Shown here piece by piece: positions 20,302 to 60,808 of a stretch of DNA of 64,000 bases. Location: contig JAQTXZ010000001.1 of assembly GCA_028688515.1 (NCBI GenBank), positions 62,001 through 126,000 of the forward strand. Reading direction: 5' to 3'. The position numbers were made by a program, and so were the translations under genes. Positions within the stretch are counted from its first letter, which is position 1. Each line of letters opens with the position of its first letter. The notes beneath the pieces are model-generated. The model saw nothing but the letters and a program-made list of their open reading frames with translations. It was not told the origin of the DNA and searched no databases. This DNA is from Patescibacteria group bacterium. Lineage in GTDB: Bacteria; Patescibacteriota; Patescibacteriia; 2-12-FULL-60-25.

Positions 20302-20983
20302 CAAATATCTTGCATTGCCGGTTCGTGGCAAGTATCGCATCACGGAAGGTTGGTTGTATTCCGATCAGGAAAAGAAAATACACGGATTGGATTTCCATGG
20401 CGGAGTTGATTTTGCGCAGCCACGAAATTCTCCTGTTTTTGCCGCGGCCGACGGTTGGGCGATCGCCTCTTATTCATTGAATCCGTTTTTTGATGAAAAA
20501 ACCGGCAAGTTGCGCCGCTTTCGGGGCAAGATTGTTGGTATGGGGCTTGGCAATTTTGTTCAAATTTATCATCCGCAGACAAAAAGATTTACACAGTACG
20601 GTCATCTGGAAAAAATCAGTGAGAAAATTCCTTTTGCAAAACCTCGCAAACTAAAAGACGGACGTTTGATTCCGATGGGACATAAGATCAATCCCAGGGA
20701 TTTAAAAAATTATCCAAAAGCAATTTGGGTCAGGTGCGGTGAAGTTATCGGCTATGTTGGCGACAGTGGTTTGACCTGGGAATATAACGATTATCCCAAT
20801 CGTCCGGATCATAAAAAACATCCTTCGTGGGACGAAACCCATGTACACTTTGAAGAATTCGTACGCAACAGCCGTGGAGCAAAACAAAGACGTGATCCGT
20901 TTGCCATTTACGACACAAACGAAAAATATCCTTGGCCGGGTCACAAGGGACGGAAAGGGGATGATGGTCTTTGGATCAAGTAA
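20294..20983 (+). CDS. M23-family (LytM-like) peptidase
   Basis: 229 aa. HGGVDFAQP gives the HxxxD zinc ligands and THVHFEE the HxH ligand; AAADGWAIAS and GNFVQIYHP fit the LytM core. A loop of about 60 residues (IPFAKPRKLKDGRLIPMG...) is inserted between the core strands. No signal peptide is visible, which is odd for a wall hydrolase. Start 20294 (MDNKYLAL) overlaps the pgeF stop by 8 nt. Its 3' end overlaps convergent prmC by 8 nt. Confidence 0.8.
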   Translation: MDNKYLALPVRGKYRITEGWLYSDQEKKIHGLDFHGGVDFAQPRNSPVFAAADGWAIASYSLNPFFDEKTGKLRRFRGKIVGMGLGNFVQIYHPQTKRFTQYGHLEKISEKIPFAKPRKLKDGRLIPMGHKINPRDLKNYPKAIWVRCGEVIGYVGDSGLTWEYNDYPNRPDHKKHPSWDETHVHFEEFVRNSRGAKQRRDPFAIYDTNEKYPWPGHKGRKGDDGLWIK

Positions 20984-22013
20984 TCGTCAAAAACCTCTCG
21001 CGACCGCAAAGATCTGATTTGATTGTGACTTTGTGTTTGGGAAAAAGCTTGCGTGCGAATGATGCGAGTTTTTTTGTTTGACGAGGGTCGAGTTCGAGGA
21101 ATATGGAATATCGAATGTCCGCTGCGCTGAATATCGAATGTCCGCTGCGCTGAATATCGAATGTCCGCTGCGCTGAATATCGAATCTGCTCTAACAGCTT
21201 CACGACAAGCGACGAACCGTCGCGGCCGGCGAAGAGGGCTTTGTGCGGTTCAAATTTTGCAACATCCGGCATCATCGTTTTTTTGTCGGTTGATGGCAGG
21301 TAGGGGAGGTTGGCGACGAAGATGAGGTCGAATGTCCGCTTCGCTGAATGTCGAATATCCGCTTCGCTGAATATCCGCTCACTCTCGTTCGCTGAATTTT
21401 TGTTAGAAGCGATATTCGATATTCGATATTCGATATTCGACTTAAGTTTAGGTCCGAGCAGACTATCTTGCACAAAAGTAACATTAGCACCGAGCTGTTT
21501 GGCATTCTTGCGTGCGACTTTGAGCGCTTCGCCGGAAACGTCGGATGCGATTACCATTGCGGACGGACATTCGAGGGCGAGCGTCACAGCCAAGCAGCCG
21601 GAACCGGTTCCGATGTCTATAATGACGTCCTTAGAACGTCCTACGGCGTCCTCAAGCGTCCTGGAGCGTCTTGAAAAATCTTGTTTGACGAGTTCGACGA
21701 GCATTTCCGTTTCGGGTCGCGGGATAAGAGTGTGTTTGTTGACGGAAAAGTCGCGTCCGTAGAAAGGCTGACTGCCGGTCAAGTATGCGATTGGTTCGTG
21801 ATTGACGCGGCGTTTGATTAAACTCAAAAACTTTTTTGTCGTCCGGTCGTCGATAGTGTCTTTGCCGTGGGCTTTGATATGGGCGCGATCTTTGTCGAGC
21901 GCATAAGCCAATAACAATTCCGTTTCGCGACGGTCGATAGTCGAATATCCGCTGCGCTGACTATCCGCTGCGCTGAATGTCGAATGTCGAAGCAAATCAT
22001 TTATGGTAGTCAT
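20976..22013 (-). CDS. prmC: Release-factor glutamine methyltransferase PrmC (HemK) carrying repeat insertions
   Basis: 345 aa. Methylates the GGQ glutamine of release factors. PIAYLTG and FSVNKHTLIPRPETEMLVE, the SAM motif DIGTGSGCLAVTLAL, and ANLPYLP (NPPY variant) are intact. Four stretches are encoded by iterated-word arrays: near the N-terminus (21934-21992), in the linker before the SAM motif (21635-21676), just before ANLPY (21329-21441) and before the last core strand (21101-21186). All keep the frame and fall in expected loops. Start 22013 is set by TATGCT 7 nt upstream. Confidence 0.9.
   Translation of the reverse strand: MTTINDLLRHSTFSAADSQRSGYSTIDRRETELLLAYALDKDRAHIKAHGKDTIDDRTTKKFLSLIKRRVNHEPIAYLTGSQPFYGRDFSVNKHTLIPRPETEMLVELVKQDFSRRSRTLEDAVGRSKDVIIDIGTGSGCLAVTLALECPSAMVIASDVSGEALKVARKNAKQLGANVTFVQDSLLGPKLKSNIEYRISNIASNKNSANESERIFSEADIRHSAKRTFDLIFVANLPYLPSTDKKTMMPDVAKFEPHKALFAGRDGSSLVVKLLEQIRYSAQRTFDIQRSGHSIFSAADIRYSIFLELDPRQTKKLASFARKLFPKHKVTIKSDLCGRERFLTIT
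21101..21186. repeat. Family D array in prmC: 23-nt unit, three tandem copies
   Basis: Three near-identical 23-nt units containing AATATCGAATGTCCGC and TGCGCTG. Because 23 is not a multiple of 3, the copies are read in all three frames (YSAQRTFDI, QRSGHSI, FSAADIRYS), none with a stop. Three copies make 69 nt and restore frame. Confidence 0.9.
21329..21441. repeat. Family D array in prmC, before the NPPY motif
   Basis: TGTCCGCTTCGCTGAATGTC units followed by four ATTCGAT words (21411-21441). Encodes SNIEYRISNIA through SEADIRHSAKRTFD on the minus strand. Confidence 0.85.
21635..21676. repeat. Family G words (ACGTCCT) in prmC
   Basis: GAACGTCCTACGGCGTCCTC followed by AAGCGTCCTGGAGCGTC, an array of about 10-nt words; encodes RRSRTLEDAVGRSKDV. 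Related words occur in pcrA at 60683-60720. Confidence 0.7.
21934..21992. repeat. Family D array in prmC, N-terminal
   Basis: GATAGTCGAATATCCGCTGC then CTATCCGCTGCGCTGAATGT words; encodes STFSAADSQRSGYSTID. Confidence 0.8.
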
Positions 22014-22020
22014 GCGGTAA

Positions 22021-22026
22021 AGCATA
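22021..22026 (-). promoter_or_regulatory. Leaderless -10 (TATGCT) of prmC
   Basis: Minus-strand TATGCT, 7 nt before ATG 22013. The adjacent 22026-22039 holds family H words. Confidence 0.45.
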
Positions 22027-22076
22027 AACTAGAAACTGGCCTTCGTCACGAGTACGGCCTTATCAGATTGAAATGG

Positions 22077-22168
22077 CAGCCCGGATTGCCGCGTTACGTC
22101 AGACTCCACTCGCAATGACAGAAGGAACGCTATGTACGTGATGTACGTTAGGTACGTTATGTGACGTT
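22077..22168. repeat. Repeat remnants between prmC and the gene at 22187
   Basis: 22077-22122 resembles a family I half element (GGATTGCCGCG..., ending CGCAATGACAG). 22132-22168 holds TATGTACGTGATGTACGTTA-type 9-nt words related to family F. Confidence 0.5.
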
Positions 22169-24074: not shown

Positions 24075-24160
24075 GAATTATGAATTAAGAATTATGAATT
24101 ATTAATTCAGGTACAGACATTCTTAATTCTTAATTCTTAATTATTAATTCTTAATTATTT
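24075..24160. repeat. Family A inverted array, copy 3
   Basis: Left arm 24075-24108 (GAATTATGAATTAAGAATT), right arm 24119-24160 (ATTCTTAATTCTTAATTC), loop CAGGTACAGAC. Directly upstream of hisS; a TAATTA word sits 7 nt before the hisS ATG. Confidence 0.85.
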
Positions 24161-25510: not shown

Positions 25511-25615
25511 TGAGTCCGTAAAGTCTATAAAGTCCGTAAAGTCCTAGAATAGGTACAATATTAAGGACTTTAAGGACTTTTGAGTTTATGGACTTTACGG
25601 ACTCTTTTGGACTCT
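25511..25615. repeat. Family C inverted word array (AAGTCCATA), copy 1
   Basis: Left arm GAGTCCGTAAAGTCTATAAA (25512 on), right arm GGACTTTAAGGACTT...GGACTTTACGGACTC, loop TAGAATAGGTACAATATT. Lies between hisS and rpsU. Confidence 0.85.
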
Positions 25616-25621
25616 TTTGCA

Positions 25622-43209: not shown

Positions 43210-43326
43210 CGAGTCCATAAAGTCTATAAACTCAAAAGTCCTTAAAGTCTTCGAAAAAGTCTTCGAATCGGTTACATTATTAAGGACTTTAAAGACTTTA
43301 TGGACTTTAAGGACTTTATAGACTCG
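43210..43326. repeat. Family C inverted word array, copy 2
   Basis: Left arm GAGTCCATAAAGTCTATAAA, right arm GGACTTTATGGACTTTAAGG ... ATAGACTC; loop contains CGGTTACATTATT. It fills most of the ftsA-ftsZ gap. Confidence 0.85.
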
Positions 43327-47844: not shown

Positions 47845-47922
47845 GGGTTCGTGGTGTAGCCTGGTTAACACGTCTCCCTGTCACGGAGAAGATCGAGGGT
47901 TCAAATCCCTTCGGACCCGCCA
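47845..47922 (+). tRNA. tRNA-Asp (GTC)
   Basis: Acceptor stem GGGTTCG (47845-47851) pairs with CGGACCC (47912-47918), one G-T pair. Anticodon loop CTGTCAC gives GTC. T-arm GAGGGTTCAAATCCCTT is standard. Discriminator G then encoded CCA (47920-47922). Confidence 0.97.
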
Positions 47923-49181: not shown

Positions 49182-50657
49182 ATGCCAAATAAAACCGATG
49201 AGCGGCAGGATAGATTGGACCGCCGCCAAAAGCTGATAGATGCCGGGATCCAAGTCCATCCGGCAAAATTTGATCGCACCTGCGTGCTGGCGGGACTGAG
49301 AGATTCTAAGGAAGGTGATAAAGCGAGTGTTTGCGGACGTATCATGTTGCAGCGCGTGATAGGCAAGCTGGCTTTTTATCAGCTGCAGGACGAATCCGGC
49401 ATGCATCAAATTGGCGTCAAAGTCGACGAAGTAGGTGAGGAAAATTATAAGCTCGTCGATCTTTTGGATCGCGGAGATTTTTTGGGAGTCACGGGTACAC
49501 TCGGAACGACAAAAACAGGCGAGCCGACAGTTTGGGCGATAAAACTCGAATTATTGGGCAAGGCGATTACACCGCTGCCCGAAAAGTGGCACGGCATTCA
49601 AGACATCGAAAAGATTTATCGACACCGCGAACTTGATTTGATAACCAACCGCGAATCTTTTGAAAGATTCCAACTGCGCAGCGCGTTTCTTTCCAACTGC
49701 CGCAAATATTTGGAGTCCAATAACTTTATGGAAGTCGAAACTCCGATTTTGACTTCTGTTGCAACGGGCGCAGCCGCCAAGCCGTTCAAAACTCATCATG
49801 AGACCGATGACATGGACATGGTACTGCGCATCTCTCCAGAGACGTATCTTAAAAGATTGATCGGCGGGGGATTTGACCGCGTGTTTGAAGTGGCAAAATG
49901 TTTCCGTAACGAAGGCTCTGATCCTTCGCACGTGCAGGAATTTACGCAGATCGAATATTACGTTTCGTATCAGGATTATTTGTGGAACATGGATTTTACG
50001 GAAAGACTTTTGCGCGAAGTCGCACAAAAAACTTTCGGCACGCTCGAGTTTGATGTCATCGGAAAGACCGGCTCAAAACATCACATTGATTTGTCGCAAC
50101 CCTTGCCGCGCTACAAAATCACGGACTTGATCAAAGAAAAAAGCGGCATCGACGTCCTCTCTTTTAATGACGCTTCGGAACTTTTGAAAGTCATGAAGAG
50201 CCGCGAGATACAAGTTGAAGATGCGGACAAGAAAGGACTTGGAACTTTGATAGACGAGTTGTACAAAAAATTCGTTCGCCCTGAATTGATCGCGCCGTGC
50301 TTTGTAATAAACCACACAACGGAGATGCTGCCGCTCGCCAGACGCAACAACGAGGATTCTCGTCTTGTTGACAGTTATCAAGTGCTCATCGCGGGCTGGG
50401 AGGTCGTAAAAGCATACTCAGAACTTGTCGACCCGGTTGATCAGCGCGAGCGAATGGAACGCCAAGCGGAATTTCGTCAGATGGGCGACGAAGAAAGTTT
50501 TGAACTGGATGAAGAATTTTTGCAGGCCATGGAAACAGGCTTTCCGCCAATTACAGGTTGGGGGATGGGCATCGATCGCATCTTCGCGCTTTTGACCGGT
50601 CAGCCGAATTTGAGGGATGTGATTTTGTTCCCGATAATGAAGGAAGAAAAGGATTAA
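49182..50657 (+). CDS. lysS: Lysyl-tRNA synthetase, class II
   Basis: 491 aa. OB-fold anticodon domain (CVLAGLRDSKEGDKASVCGR), motif 1 region EVETPILTSVATGAAAKPF, motif 2 VAKCFRNEGSDPSHVQEFTQ and motif 3 GWGMGIDRIFALLTG. Complete. AT-rich upstream (TAATAT or TATAAA at 49160-49168) and no SD. Followed by an inverted-array-bounded S23 gene. Confidence 0.95.
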   Translation: MPNKTDERQDRLDRRQKLIDAGIQVHPAKFDRTCVLAGLRDSKEGDKASVCGRIMLQRVIGKLAFYQLQDESGMHQIGVKVDEVGEENYKLVDLLDRGDFLGVTGTLGTTKTGEPTVWAIKLELLGKAITPLPEKWHGIQDIEKIYRHRELDLITNRESFERFQLRSAFLSNCRKYLESNNFMEVETPILTSVATGAAAKPFKTHHETDDMDMVLRISPETYLKRLIGGGFDRVFEVAKCFRNEGSDPSHVQEFTQIEYYVSYQDYLWNMDFTERLLREVAQKTFGTLEFDVIGKTGSKHHIDLSQPLPRYKITDLIKEKSGIDVLSFNDASELLKVMKSREIQVEDADKKGLGTLIDELYKKFVRPELIAPCFVINHTTEMLPLARRNNEDSRLVDSYQVLIAGWEVVKAYSELVDPVDQRERMERQAEFRQMGDEESFELDEEFLQAMETGFPPITGWGMGIDRIFALLTGQPNLRDVILFPIMKEEKD

Positions 50658-50696
50658 TGACTAAAGACGAAGGACTAAGGACTAAGGACTAAGGAT
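50658..50696. repeat. Family B array (GACTAAG), left flank of the S23 gene
   Basis: Begins right after the lysS stop: GACTAAAGACGAAGGACTAA then two more GGACTAA words. Inverse of 51104-51175. Confidence 0.9.
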
Positions 50697-51103: not shown

Positions 51104-51175
51104 TCGTCTTTAGTCTTTAATCTTTAGTCTTTAATCGTTAGTCCTTAGTCTTTCGTCCTTAGTCCTTAGTCTTGA
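51104..51175. repeat. Family B array (TTAGTCT), right flank of the S23 gene
   Basis: About ten words of TCTTTAG/TCCTTAG type, inverse of 50658-50696 and about twice as long; ends just before the RNHCP gene. Confidence 0.9.
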
Positions 51176-53600: not shown

Positions 53601-53644
53601 AGAGTCCATAAAGTCCTTAAAGTCTTTAAAGTCCATAAAGTCCA
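53601..53644. repeat. Family C words (AAGTCCATA), single arm
   Basis: AGAGTCCATAAAGTCCTTAA then AGTCTTTAAAGTCCATAAAG; no inverse arm next to it. Confidence 0.75.
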
Positions 53645-56852: not shown

Positions 56853-57380
56853 ATGACTTTTGATGCGGAAATAGCAATTTTTATCCAAAGATTTTTTCTT
56901 ACTTCCACTCTGGGAATAGGCTTTGCGGTCTTACTCTCCAGATATTTGATTTTTATTTTTATCCCGGTTCTGGTTTGGCTCTCAGTTTATGGCGATAATC
57001 AAGAAAAACATGCGGTTAAAGAAGCCGCATGGTCGATGGGTGTAGCCATTTTAATCGCAGAAATATTTTCTTTGCTTTTATTGCGCATCAGGCCATTTCT
57101 CTCTGTGGCCGAAATCGTGTCCTTGATCCCGCCCCCTCTGACCAGCGCCTTTCCTTCCACACATGTATCGATCGCTATCGCCGCGACCGCAGCTCTTTTT
57201 TCCGTCAGCAGGCGCTGGGGATATTTTTGTGCGATTATTGCGCTTGGTATAGCCATTGGGCGCGTTGCCGCAGGTGTCCACTACCCATCTGATATCATAG
57301 GCGGTATGCTGGTGGGCGTCTTTGCTTTTGCGGCGGTCAGACTCGGGCATAAGGCGTTGAGACTAAAGACTAAAGACTAA
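56853..57380 (+). CDS. PAP2-family membrane phosphatase (undecaprenyl-diphosphatase-like)
   Basis: 175 aa, about five transmembrane helices. Lipid phosphatase motifs: LLRIRPF (KxxxxxxRP type), SAFPSTHVS (PSGH type) and GRVAAGVHYPSDIIGG (SRxxxxxHxxxD type). Likely recycles undecaprenyl pyrophosphate for wall synthesis. Its last residues RLKTKD and its stop codon are encoded by a GACTAAA repeat array; the same RLKTKD peptide occurs in the gyrB insertion. Confidence 0.85.
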   Translation: MTFDAEIAIFIQRFFLTSTLGIGFAVLLSRYLIFIFIPVLVWLSVYGDNQEKHAVKEAAWSMGVAILIAEIFSLLLLRIRPFLSVAEIVSLIPPPLTSAFPSTHVSIAIAATAALFSVSRRWGYFCAIIALGIAIGRVAAGVHYPSDIIGGMLVGVFAFAAVRLGHKALRLKTKD

Positions 57381-57406
57381 AGACTAAAGACTAAAGACTA
57401 AAGACT
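57361..57406. repeat. Family B array, six GACTAAA units
   Basis: Near-perfect 7-nt tandem: GACTAAAGACTAAAGACTAA onwards to 57406. Overlaps the PAP2 gene end and abuts the family I palindrome. Confidence 0.95.
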
Positions 57407-58591: not shown

Positions 58592-60808
58592 ATGATTGAT
58601 TTTAACCGTGAATTAAACCAAGAACAGTTGGATGCGGTGCTGCATGGAGACGGCGCGTGTTTGGTATTAGCCGGAGCGGGTTCGGGAAAGACGAGGACGG
58701 TCACTTACCGGGTGGCATATCTTTTGGAGCAAGGCGTTGATCCGGGTTCAATTCTGTTGCTGACTTTTACCAACAAAGCCGCGCGTGAAATGCTGGAGCG
58801 CATCGGTTCACTCGTGGGGCCGCAATCCAAAGGCGTGTGGGGTGGGACGTTTCACGCGGTCGCTAATCGTCTATTGCGATCTTTCGCGCCGGCCATCGGC
58901 TACACTTCGTCTTTTTCAATTCTCGATCAAGAAGATGCCAAGAGTTTGCTCAAAGCAGTTTTGAAGGATTCCAAGATAGATCCGAAAGTCCGTCGCTTTC
59001 CTTCGACGTCCGTCATTTCCAATTTACACTCATTTGTGCGCAACACTGATTTTGATTTGCGCGAAGCTCTCGAGATGAAGTACTCGAATTTTTTGGATTG
59101 CGCGGGTGACATCGAATTTGTGACCAAGCAGTACGATCAGCGCAAGATGTTGGCCAACGCCATGGATTTTGACGACTTGCTCGTCAACTGGCTGCGTGTT
59201 TTGGAGGAACAGCCGCAGATTGCGCAGGCTATCGGCAATCGTTTTAAATACGTGCTGGTCGACGAATATCAAGATACGAATGCGCTGCAGGCCAAAATTG
59301 TCGGACGGCTTGGACAAGTGCATCGCAATGTATTTGTAGTCGGTGACGATGCACAGTCCATTTACGCCTTTCGCGGCGCCGATGTAAAAAATATTTTGGC
59401 TTTTCCCAATCAGTGGCAAAATGCGCGCATGTTCAAACTGCTTTCCAACTATCGCAGCACGCCGCAAATCTTGGAAGTCGCCAATGAATCGCTTAAAAAC
59501 AACGTCAATCAGTTCGAGAAAGATCTGATAGGCCTAAAAGCGTCCGGGCTTAAACCGACTTTGGTCGCTTGTCCGTCCGCAAGGCAAGAGGCGCAGTTTG
59601 TCGCCGATCAAATTCTTTTGCTGCGCAACAAGGGCGTGGCTTTGGGCAACATGGCGGTCTTGTTCAGGGCGACCGCGCACTCGCAGGCTTTGGAATTCGA
59701 ATTGATGAAACGAGACATTCCGTTTGAATACCGCGGCGGCGTAAGATTTTTTGAACGCGCTCACATCAAAGATATCCTCGCTTATTTGCGCATTTTGGAA
59801 AACGTAAAAGATGAAACTGCGTGGCTGCGCGTTTTGAATATGCAACAGGGAATCGGAGCGGCATCGGCTTCGCAGATCATTTCGGGCTTGCGAGAGCTGA
59901 CGAGCGCTGGCGAAGTATTGAACATCGGCGACTCAGTGATTCCGGCGCGCGCACTTTCGGGTTGGCGAGATACGATCGGGATGATGCAGATTATGCAAGC
60001 TCCAGAGTCAGAGATCGTCGGTGTTGTAGACAAAAAGCCCGGGCGCATCGTGAGAGCGCTGGTCGCTTCAGGATCTTATCGAGCATATCTTGAAAGTGAA
60101 TATCCTGATTGGAAGGAAAGAATCGAAGACTTGGAACAGTTGGCGTCGTTCGCAGACGTTTATCCCGATGTCAGCTCATTCCTCGCGGATTCTGTTCTCG
60201 AAGGCGCGGGTTTTGTTTCGAAGACGGCAGACGGCAGACAACAGACGACAGGAGATGATGAGCGTATGATTTTGTCGACCGTCCATCAGGCCAAGGGTCT
60301 TGAGTGGGACACTGTATTCGTCATTCATTTGACCAACCTCGGTTTTCCGAATCCTCGCGCGTTGGAAGAAGAGGATTCGATCGAAGAAGAGCGTCGGCTT
60401 TTTTATGTTGCAGTCACACGTGCGCGCAACCGCCTTTTTCTTTCTTATCCGCAAACCGCCGGATACGATGCCATGACTTTTTGCCGGCCGTCCATGTTTT
60501 TAGAGGAGCTCCCGCCGCGTTTGTTCGAGAGGATGAATACCACGAATCTCGAATCTCGAAGCTCGAATCTCGATATTCAGCGAAGCGGATATTCAGCGAA
60601 GCGGACATTCGATATTCGAGGGAGTGCATCGGAGGACGGTTACGACGAACCCTCGATACAGCTCGATCGTCATGGGGAATACCATCGTCCTGCGTCCAAC
60701 GTCCTACGTCCTACGTCAGAACCAAAAACAAAATCCGTCTGGAAGACGGATAAGCCCGCGACAGAATTGCCAAAAATCAGTTATTTGAGGGATGTGGATG
60801 AGATATAA
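58592..60808 (+). CDS. pcrA: UvrD/PcrA-type DNA helicase with repeat-derived tail
   Basis: 738 aa. SF1A motifs: Q motif LNQEQLDAV, Walker A AGAGSGKTRT, LTFTNKAAREM, DEYQDTN (Walker B), GDDAQSIYAFRGAD, NYRSTPQIL, STVHQAKGLEWDTVFVIHL, VAVTRARNRLFLS. 3'-5' translocase for repair and conflict resolution. Three segments derive from word arrays: TADGRQQTTGDD before motif V, and two in the C-terminal linker (LDIQRSGYSAKRTFD; RPASNVLRPTSEP). The motifs are undisturbed. Confidence 0.93.
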   Translation: MIDFNRELNQEQLDAVLHGDGACLVLAGAGSGKTRTVTYRVAYLLEQGVDPGSILLLTFTNKAAREMLERIGSLVGPQSKGVWGGTFHAVANRLLRSFAPAIGYTSSFSILDQEDAKSLLKAVLKDSKIDPKVRRFPSTSVISNLHSFVRNTDFDLREALEMKYSNFLDCAGDIEFVTKQYDQRKMLANAMDFDDLLVNWLRVLEEQPQIAQAIGNRFKYVLVDEYQDTNALQAKIVGRLGQVHRNVFVVGDDAQSIYAFRGADVKNILAFPNQWQNARMFKLLSNYRSTPQILEVANESLKNNVNQFEKDLIGLKASGLKPTLVACPSARQEAQFVADQILLLRNKGVALGNMAVLFRATAHSQALEFELMKRDIPFEYRGGVRFFERAHIKDILAYLRILENVKDETAWLRVLNMQQGIGAASASQIISGLRELTSAGEVLNIGDSVIPARALSGWRDTIGMMQIMQAPESEIVGVVDKKPGRIVRALVASGSYRAYLESEYPDWKERIEDLEQLASFADVYPDVSSFLADSVLEGAGFVSKTADGRQQTTGDDERMILSTVHQAKGLEWDTVFVIHLTNLGFPNPRALEEEDSIEEERRLFYVAVTRARNRLFLSYPQTAGYDAMTFCRPSMFLEELPPRLFERMNTTNLESRSSNLDIQRSGYSAKRTFDIRGSASEDGYDEPSIQLDRHGEYHRPASNVLRPTSEPKTKSVWKTDKPATELPKISYLRDVDEI
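60224..60258. repeat. GACGGCAGAC words in pcrA
   Basis: AGACGGCAGACGGCAGACAA then CAGACGACAGG; encodes TADGRQQTTGD in frame, between 2B-domain and motif V. Confidence 0.55.
60541..60632. repeat. Family D array in pcrA
   Basis: CTCGAATCTCGAAGCTCGAA words, then GATATTCAGCGAAGCG twice in tandem, then GACATTCGATATTCGA. Shares words with the prmC arrays. Confidence 0.85.
60683..60720. repeat. Family G words (ACGTCCT) in pcrA
   Basis: GTCCTGCGTCCAACGTCCTA then CGTCCTACGTC; encodes RPASNVLRPTS. Confidence 0.75.

Follow-up and report, generated by a model that had tools for sequence, protein, structure and literature searches.

Tandem heptamers are known in cyanobacteria as the STRR repeats. Rickettsia palindromic elements (RPE) are short in-frame repeats in unrelated metabolic genes, and PMC10969869, on the basis of Ogata 2000 and 2002, places nearly half of them in open reading frames (ORFs). 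The TAACTGA heptamer repeats of Beggiatoaceae, Bacteroidetes and cyanobacteria are mainly intergenic (PMC4679880), and in the tandem repeats of Borgs all ORF units are divisible by three (PMC9879509). Here we report arrays of 7- and 9-nt words lying in frame within protein genes of an uncultured Patescibacteria bacterium of the Candidate Phyla Radiation (CPR), beginning with the gene prmC in a stretch of 64,000 nt (contig JAQTXZ010000001.1, positions 62,001 to 126,000; hereafter, the window). The study genome, G000, comprises 1.29 Mb in four contigs and was compared with eight congeners, which are draft metagenome assemblies. A literature search found no paper describing in-frame word arrays in CPR. 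As with RPE, the insertions occur in frame in unrelated protein genes whose homologues lack them, the comparison being one of described features and not of sequence. The prmC gene and its arrays are located in the window as follows.

20976..22025, minus strand: prmC (release factor N5-glutamine methyltransferase), 349 aa, S-adenosylmethionine (SAM) and NLPY motifs intact
21106..21185, minus strand: array 1, sense 23-nt unit AGCGCAGCG GACATTC GATATTC repeated 3.5 times, residues 281-307
21327..21440, minus strand: array 2, composite inverted element with a left arm (CGAATAT)n, a loop and a right arm with 9-mers, residues 196-233
21626..21672, minus strand: array 3 (weak), AGGACG words 10-11 nt apart, residues 118-134, in the linker preceding the GTGSG motif
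21942..21988, minus strand: array 4, 16-nt units of 9-mers and 7-mers, residues 13-28, close to the N-terminus

The initial annotation described four in-frame insertions in prmC. Three are clear arrays and one is weak; all are in frame, with zero in-frame stops. The weak one is array 3 (21635-21676 in that annotation), which consists of four CGTCCT words and one CGTCTT at 21626-21672; Tandem Repeats Finder (TRF) gave no call at that site, and the segment is still extra relative to the PrmC of close relatives. TRF called array 1 as 23 nt × 3.5 (21106-21185) with 100% identical copies, array 2 as 23 nt × 2 at 21327-21372 and 7 nt × 4.4 at 21410-21440, and array 4 as 16 nt × 1.9 at 21946-21976. 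The element of array 2 recurs in an unrelated glycosyltransferase gene on another stretch (C4:385506-385606), and both copies encode the peptide SNIEYRISN. The protein, with the SAM and NLPY motifs intact as first reported, scores 219.4 bits against TIGR03534 (cut-off 199.1). An alternative start of the gene is the second ATG at 22013. Alignment with related PrmC, which had been proposed as a check, showed that the inserted segments are missing from the closest relatives.

The sequence beside the prmC start, at 22060-22125 of the window, has the look of a palindrome (GGCAGCCCGGATTGCC...CGCAATGACAG) and is similar to a kind of repeat that many bacteria have.

The earlier placement of the insertions in linkers or loops agrees with the AlphaFold2 model of PrmC, which has a mean predicted local distance difference test (pLDDT) score of 87.8 and matches the E. 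coli PrmC fold 2b3t (TMt 0.83). The core is predicted with confidence. The N-terminal end aside, the score drops below about 77 at residues 11-30, 121-130, 201-230 and 281-300, which are the four arrays; it is 57 in array 1 (residues 291-300), 55-56 in array 2 and 59 in array 3. In the RlmN model, pLDDT is below 50 at residues 148-163 and 316-339, which are its two extra segments, and at the three C-terminal residues. Judging by these models, array-encoded peptides are extra, probably floppy loops. In this they are similar to the Borg tandem repeats, which also evolve quickly and lengthen proteins by segments that are probably disordered.

The arrays are not confined to prmC. A genome scan for the repeat units, also proposed in the initial annotation, found the 16-mer CGCTKCGCTGAWTRTC with at most one mismatch at 59 dispersed sites; the reversed-pattern control gave 0. 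Eighteen stretches picked around word matches were analysed together with the window, 382 kb in all (about 30% of the genome), and genes were predicted there by a simple caller based on codon usage, which gave a coding fraction of 0.82. About 30 array clusters were found in this sample, and 18 of them lie within 15 genes: prmC, a pcrA-like helicase gene, a P-type ATPase gene, epmA, the gene for a 1766-aa protein, two GT4-type glycosyltransferase genes, a two-domain glycosyltransferase gene, rlmD, rlmN, a membrane protein gene, metG, dnaG, tgt and tsaE. Core genes of translation and of DNA replication are thus among them. Names were assigned with NCBIfam, and by eye only for two of the glycosyltransferases, the 1766-aa protein and the membrane protein. 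Despite the inserts, eight proteins (PrmC, EpmA, RlmD, RlmN, MetG, DnaG, Tgt and TsaE) score above the curated cut-offs. The helicase gene lies in the window.

58592..60808, plus strand: UvrD/PcrA-like helicase gene, three in-frame arrays in the C-terminal linker
60543..60610, plus strand: CGAATCT heptamers followed by a GATATTC-AGCGAAGCG array, in the helicase gene; a CGAATCT array also occupies this site in the ortholog of congener G004
60682..60717, plus strand: array of CGTCCTA/ACGTCC words, in the helicase gene, called by TRF

On the sense strand, the arrays are composed of the 7-mers GATATTC and GACATTC and the 9-mer AGCGNAGCG, combined into units of 16 nt (9 + 7) and 23 nt (9 + 7 + 7). 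Since neither length is a multiple of three, each successive copy falls in a new frame: the 9-mer copies of prmC occupy frames 0, 1, 0, 2, 2, 1 and 0, and the PrmC units yield peptides such as DIQRSGHS, FSAADI and YSAQRTF from differing frames. Borg units are different in this respect, whereas the units of 7, 16 and 23 nt found here make neighbouring copies encode different peptides. The 23-nt unit with frame-shifting copies that was first noted in array 1 is borne out by the TRF call, but the grammar is one of 7- and 9-nt words with no fixed unit. TRF periods of 7 and 14 account for 93 arrays in the 382 kb, and periods of 8, 11 and 13 for none.

The usual sense spellings have no stop in any frame, but their complement has TGA in one, so the original statement that the units are stop-free in every frame holds for one strand. 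Genic copies face accordingly: 36 of 37 genic 9-mers are on the open strand, and the sole exception is within a doubtful 83-aa ORF. These copies are spread over the three frames (13/14/9), in contrast to RPE families, which encode a conserved peptide in one frame. The TAG-bearing variant AGCGTAGCG occurs four times in genes, in each case in a frame where TAG is unread. For periods not divisible by three, the genic to intergenic ratio in this hit-centred sample is 42:35 for arrays with a stop-free strand and 7:37 where neither strand is stop-free (Fisher p = 4e-5); genic arrays with such periods number 49, versus 27 with divisible ones. The known heptamer repeats are likewise dispersed tandem 7-nt units with 7-nt indels and a patchy distribution, but they differ in their mainly intergenic location, and the arrays described here have an extra 9-nt module. 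The bias of strand and frame would arise because selection removes stops and frameshifts; special insertion chemistry is not required. The arrays are dispersed both in and between genes, and the genic copies keep the frame and are nearly always on the open strand.

Different words of 7 and 9 nt (AATTATG/ATTCTTA, AGTCCATAA/TTAAGGACT, GTCTTTA and AGACTAA) make up many further arrays in the window, mostly intergenic, at 2029-2134, 24075-24156, 25513-25619, 43212-43324, 50649-50695, 51106-51173, 53603-53644 and 57360-57406. They are often paired with a near reverse complement downstream, and most of them bear stops and lie outside genes. The sole Rfam match in the window is a tRNA gene at 47845-47919.

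The genus phylogeny has the order (G005,(G000,(G002,(G001,G004)))), G001 and G004 being sisters with 94% amino-acid identity. The exact words occur 40 times in G000, 0 times in the eight congeners and as one stray copy elsewhere among 54 genomes; the words are thus not shared by the distant genomes searched. Among 380 genomes sampled from the phylum, only two others show the 16-period pattern of 9-mers, and their heptamers differ. Comparison with homologues of PrmC, RlmN, Tgt, RlmD and MetG confirmed that the in-frame inserts are extra in G000. The arrays of G001, G004 and G005 are spelled differently (GAGATTC, GAGCTTC) and often sit in the very loops that carry arrays in G000; GAGATTCGAGATTC is found 26 times in G004, 10 times in G001, 6 times in G005 and once in G000. 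A word array of variable length with species-specific spelling is a further difference from RPE. With 5.2 TRF arrays per 10 kb, congener G008 is also rich in periods of 7, 9, 14 and 16 nt; its words are AT-rich and unlike those of G000.

Same-loop arrays in the congeners' own spellings were found for eight genes: those of GT4, EpmA, the PcrA-like helicase, TsaE, the glycosyltransferase (GT) fusion, RlmN, Tgt and RlmD. An independent word search in G004 identified eight array genes, and seven of them fall among the 16 array genes of 313 sampled in G000 (chance probability about 2e-9). Arrays of G000 and G004 in the same loop share the 9-mer frame and, in the GT fusion, also the distance from the flank (EIQRSGHSIFEDIAV and EIQRSGDSRFDDIAV, respectively); this suggests that some sites may be related by descent. 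Other loops have changed their content. A TsaD loop contains ACGTTGT/TACCACG words in G000 (C4:876334-877470) versus CGAAGCT/GAGATTC words in G004, the place of PrmC array 1 is taken in G004 by a different repeat, and unrelated palindromes occupy the PrmC loop of G004 and the Tgt loop of G001. These palindromes are of the common bacterial intergenic type (CATTCCGAGCGAAG..GAGGAATCT), which has a related-looking AGCGAAG core, but they are single palindromes with other flanks and not word arrays. The PrmC of a more distant relative, G016, carries another common palindrome. Because arrays, other words and unrelated palindromes occupy the same loops, these loops appear to be permissive sites with traffic. 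Of the two sister species, G004 has an RlmN array and two PrmC inserts that G001 lacks, and G002 has no arrays at RlmN, Tgt and RlmD.

Two further inserts were seen in G004 TsaD. The in-frame palindromic repeats of G004 and G016, which lie in the same PrmC linkers, are CATTCCGAG..AATGACAG, CTCACCCCC..GGGGTGAG and TGTCATCCTCGCG..GGGAATGACA.

Several of the arrays in G000, G001, G004 and G005 form a composite element of 61-110 nt, in which a left arm (CGAANNT)2-5 is followed by a loop and a right arm (GANNTTC)1-3 AGCGNAGCG (GANNTTC)n. RPE are palindromic elements of about 150 bp. Evidence for a hairpin is limited to some of the composite elements, a few of which fold far better than shuffles (z −5.5, −3.9 and −3.7). 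A role of the GCGNAGC mini-hairpin within the 9-mer as a DNA signal is speculative, as single units fold no better than shuffles as DNA. A viral vehicle was also dismissed, the array being unmatched in IMG/VR contigs.

Taken together, we are fairly confident that the segments in PrmC belong to a family of arrays of 7-nt (GANATTC/CGAANNT) and 9-nt (AGCGNAGCG) words that is hairpin-prone and spans the genus. Its copies disperse and turn over, and they persist in genes only if a permissive loop receives them in frame and without a stop. Copies would disperse by a copying process, either template switching or gene conversion or a transposase acting in trans, and arrays would gain or lose 7 or 9 nt at a time in place. 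Copies that shift the frame, carry a stop or strike the folded core would be purged by purifying selection, and the genic survivors would be open-strand arrays in permissive loops. We infer the movement of copies, its route and, as the most likely state of the inserted peptide, tolerance and not use. The protein-invading repeat system analogous to RPE that had been proposed is supported as regards dispersed, lineage-specific in-frame copies in 15 genes; "invading" need not imply that the element is mobile and active.

Several observations weigh against this explanation. The shared loops fit both descent and repeated insertion. Only 5 of 13 composite elements fold into a hairpin better than shuffles (z < −2). 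At the one RlmN presence/absence site compared, between G001 and G004, a clear target-site duplication was not found, and no Y1_Tnp (PF01797) was found in the array-bearing G001, G004 and G005. In addition, the gene caller is home-made and the sample, except for the window, is centred on hits, so the genic fractions are not genome-wide estimates.

Other histories and mechanisms can be compared on the same evidence. The arrays may have entered the loops once, in the genus ancestor, with gene conversion then rewriting the spellings in each species. This is a tentative but plausible history, compatible with the rest of the explanation: the loop, the 9-mer frame and the GT-fusion flank distance are common to G000 and G004 although their heptamers differ genome-wide, and the tree nests G000 inside species using GAGATTC. 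Unrelated word families in the same TsaD loop, the palindrome in the G001 Tgt loop and the array-free sites of G002 (RlmN, Tgt, RlmD) and G001 (RlmN) argue against a single entry. It is possible, but somewhat doubtful, that in each species the spelling is rewritten jointly at dozens of dispersed sites, while the sites, a small set of permissive loops in core translation and replication enzymes, are shared by the genus; the in-frame insertions would then evolve in concert by transposase-independent copying. A transposase-driven miniature element, mobilised in trans via its hairpin like repetitive extragenic palindromes with their Y1 transposase (REP/RAYT) or miniature inverted-repeat transposable elements (MITEs), is unlikely. 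The composite architecture is well defined at several loci and in several species, some folds are strong and some elements have inverted arms; there is also one Y1_Tnp match in G000. That match is a single 136-aa frame with no array words nearby, and length and word number vary continuously. The lack of Y1_Tnp in the array-bearing congeners, where other transposase families were not searched, speaks against a RAYT link in particular.

Independent replication slippage in each gene, with no dispersal, is highly improbable as the only origin. Period steps are mostly 7 nt, the copies of array 1 are identical, and heptamers are the top class of 5-11 nt repeats in most bacterial genomes, with slippage proposed as the cause, according to an earlier survey as cited in PMC4679880. 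The same 16-mer spellings and the composite element are, however, present at about 30 unlinked loci and missing from relatives, and slippage alone cannot have made the same words at unlinked loci; it probably accounts for copy-number change inside an array. Selection of the inserts as adaptive peptides, for example in regulation or interaction, is very unlikely. It would fit the recurrence in translation-related enzymes and the loops common to several species, but words and frames yield different peptides in one loop, presence varies between sister species and predicted order is low. An assembly artefact or decayed pseudogenes are hardly credible: short repeats misassemble easily and the congeners are draft assemblies, yet each array has unique flanks, the inspected array genes contain no stops, family scores exceed the cut-offs and same-loop arrays recur in separately assembled congeners.

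Rickettsia has been the main known case of repeats invading metabolic and housekeeping genes in frame; here such invasion is seen in a streamlined CPR genome, with a non-triplet 7 + 9-nt anatomy. The genus offers three natural controls, namely array-free relatives, sister species with single-insertion differences and one loop with different repeats. The tolerance of loops to insertion, the birth of disordered segments and the spread of tiny repeats with no obvious transposase are thereby opened to direct test. "Lineage-specific insertions" in CPR proteins should be treated with caution, as they may be repeat DNA.
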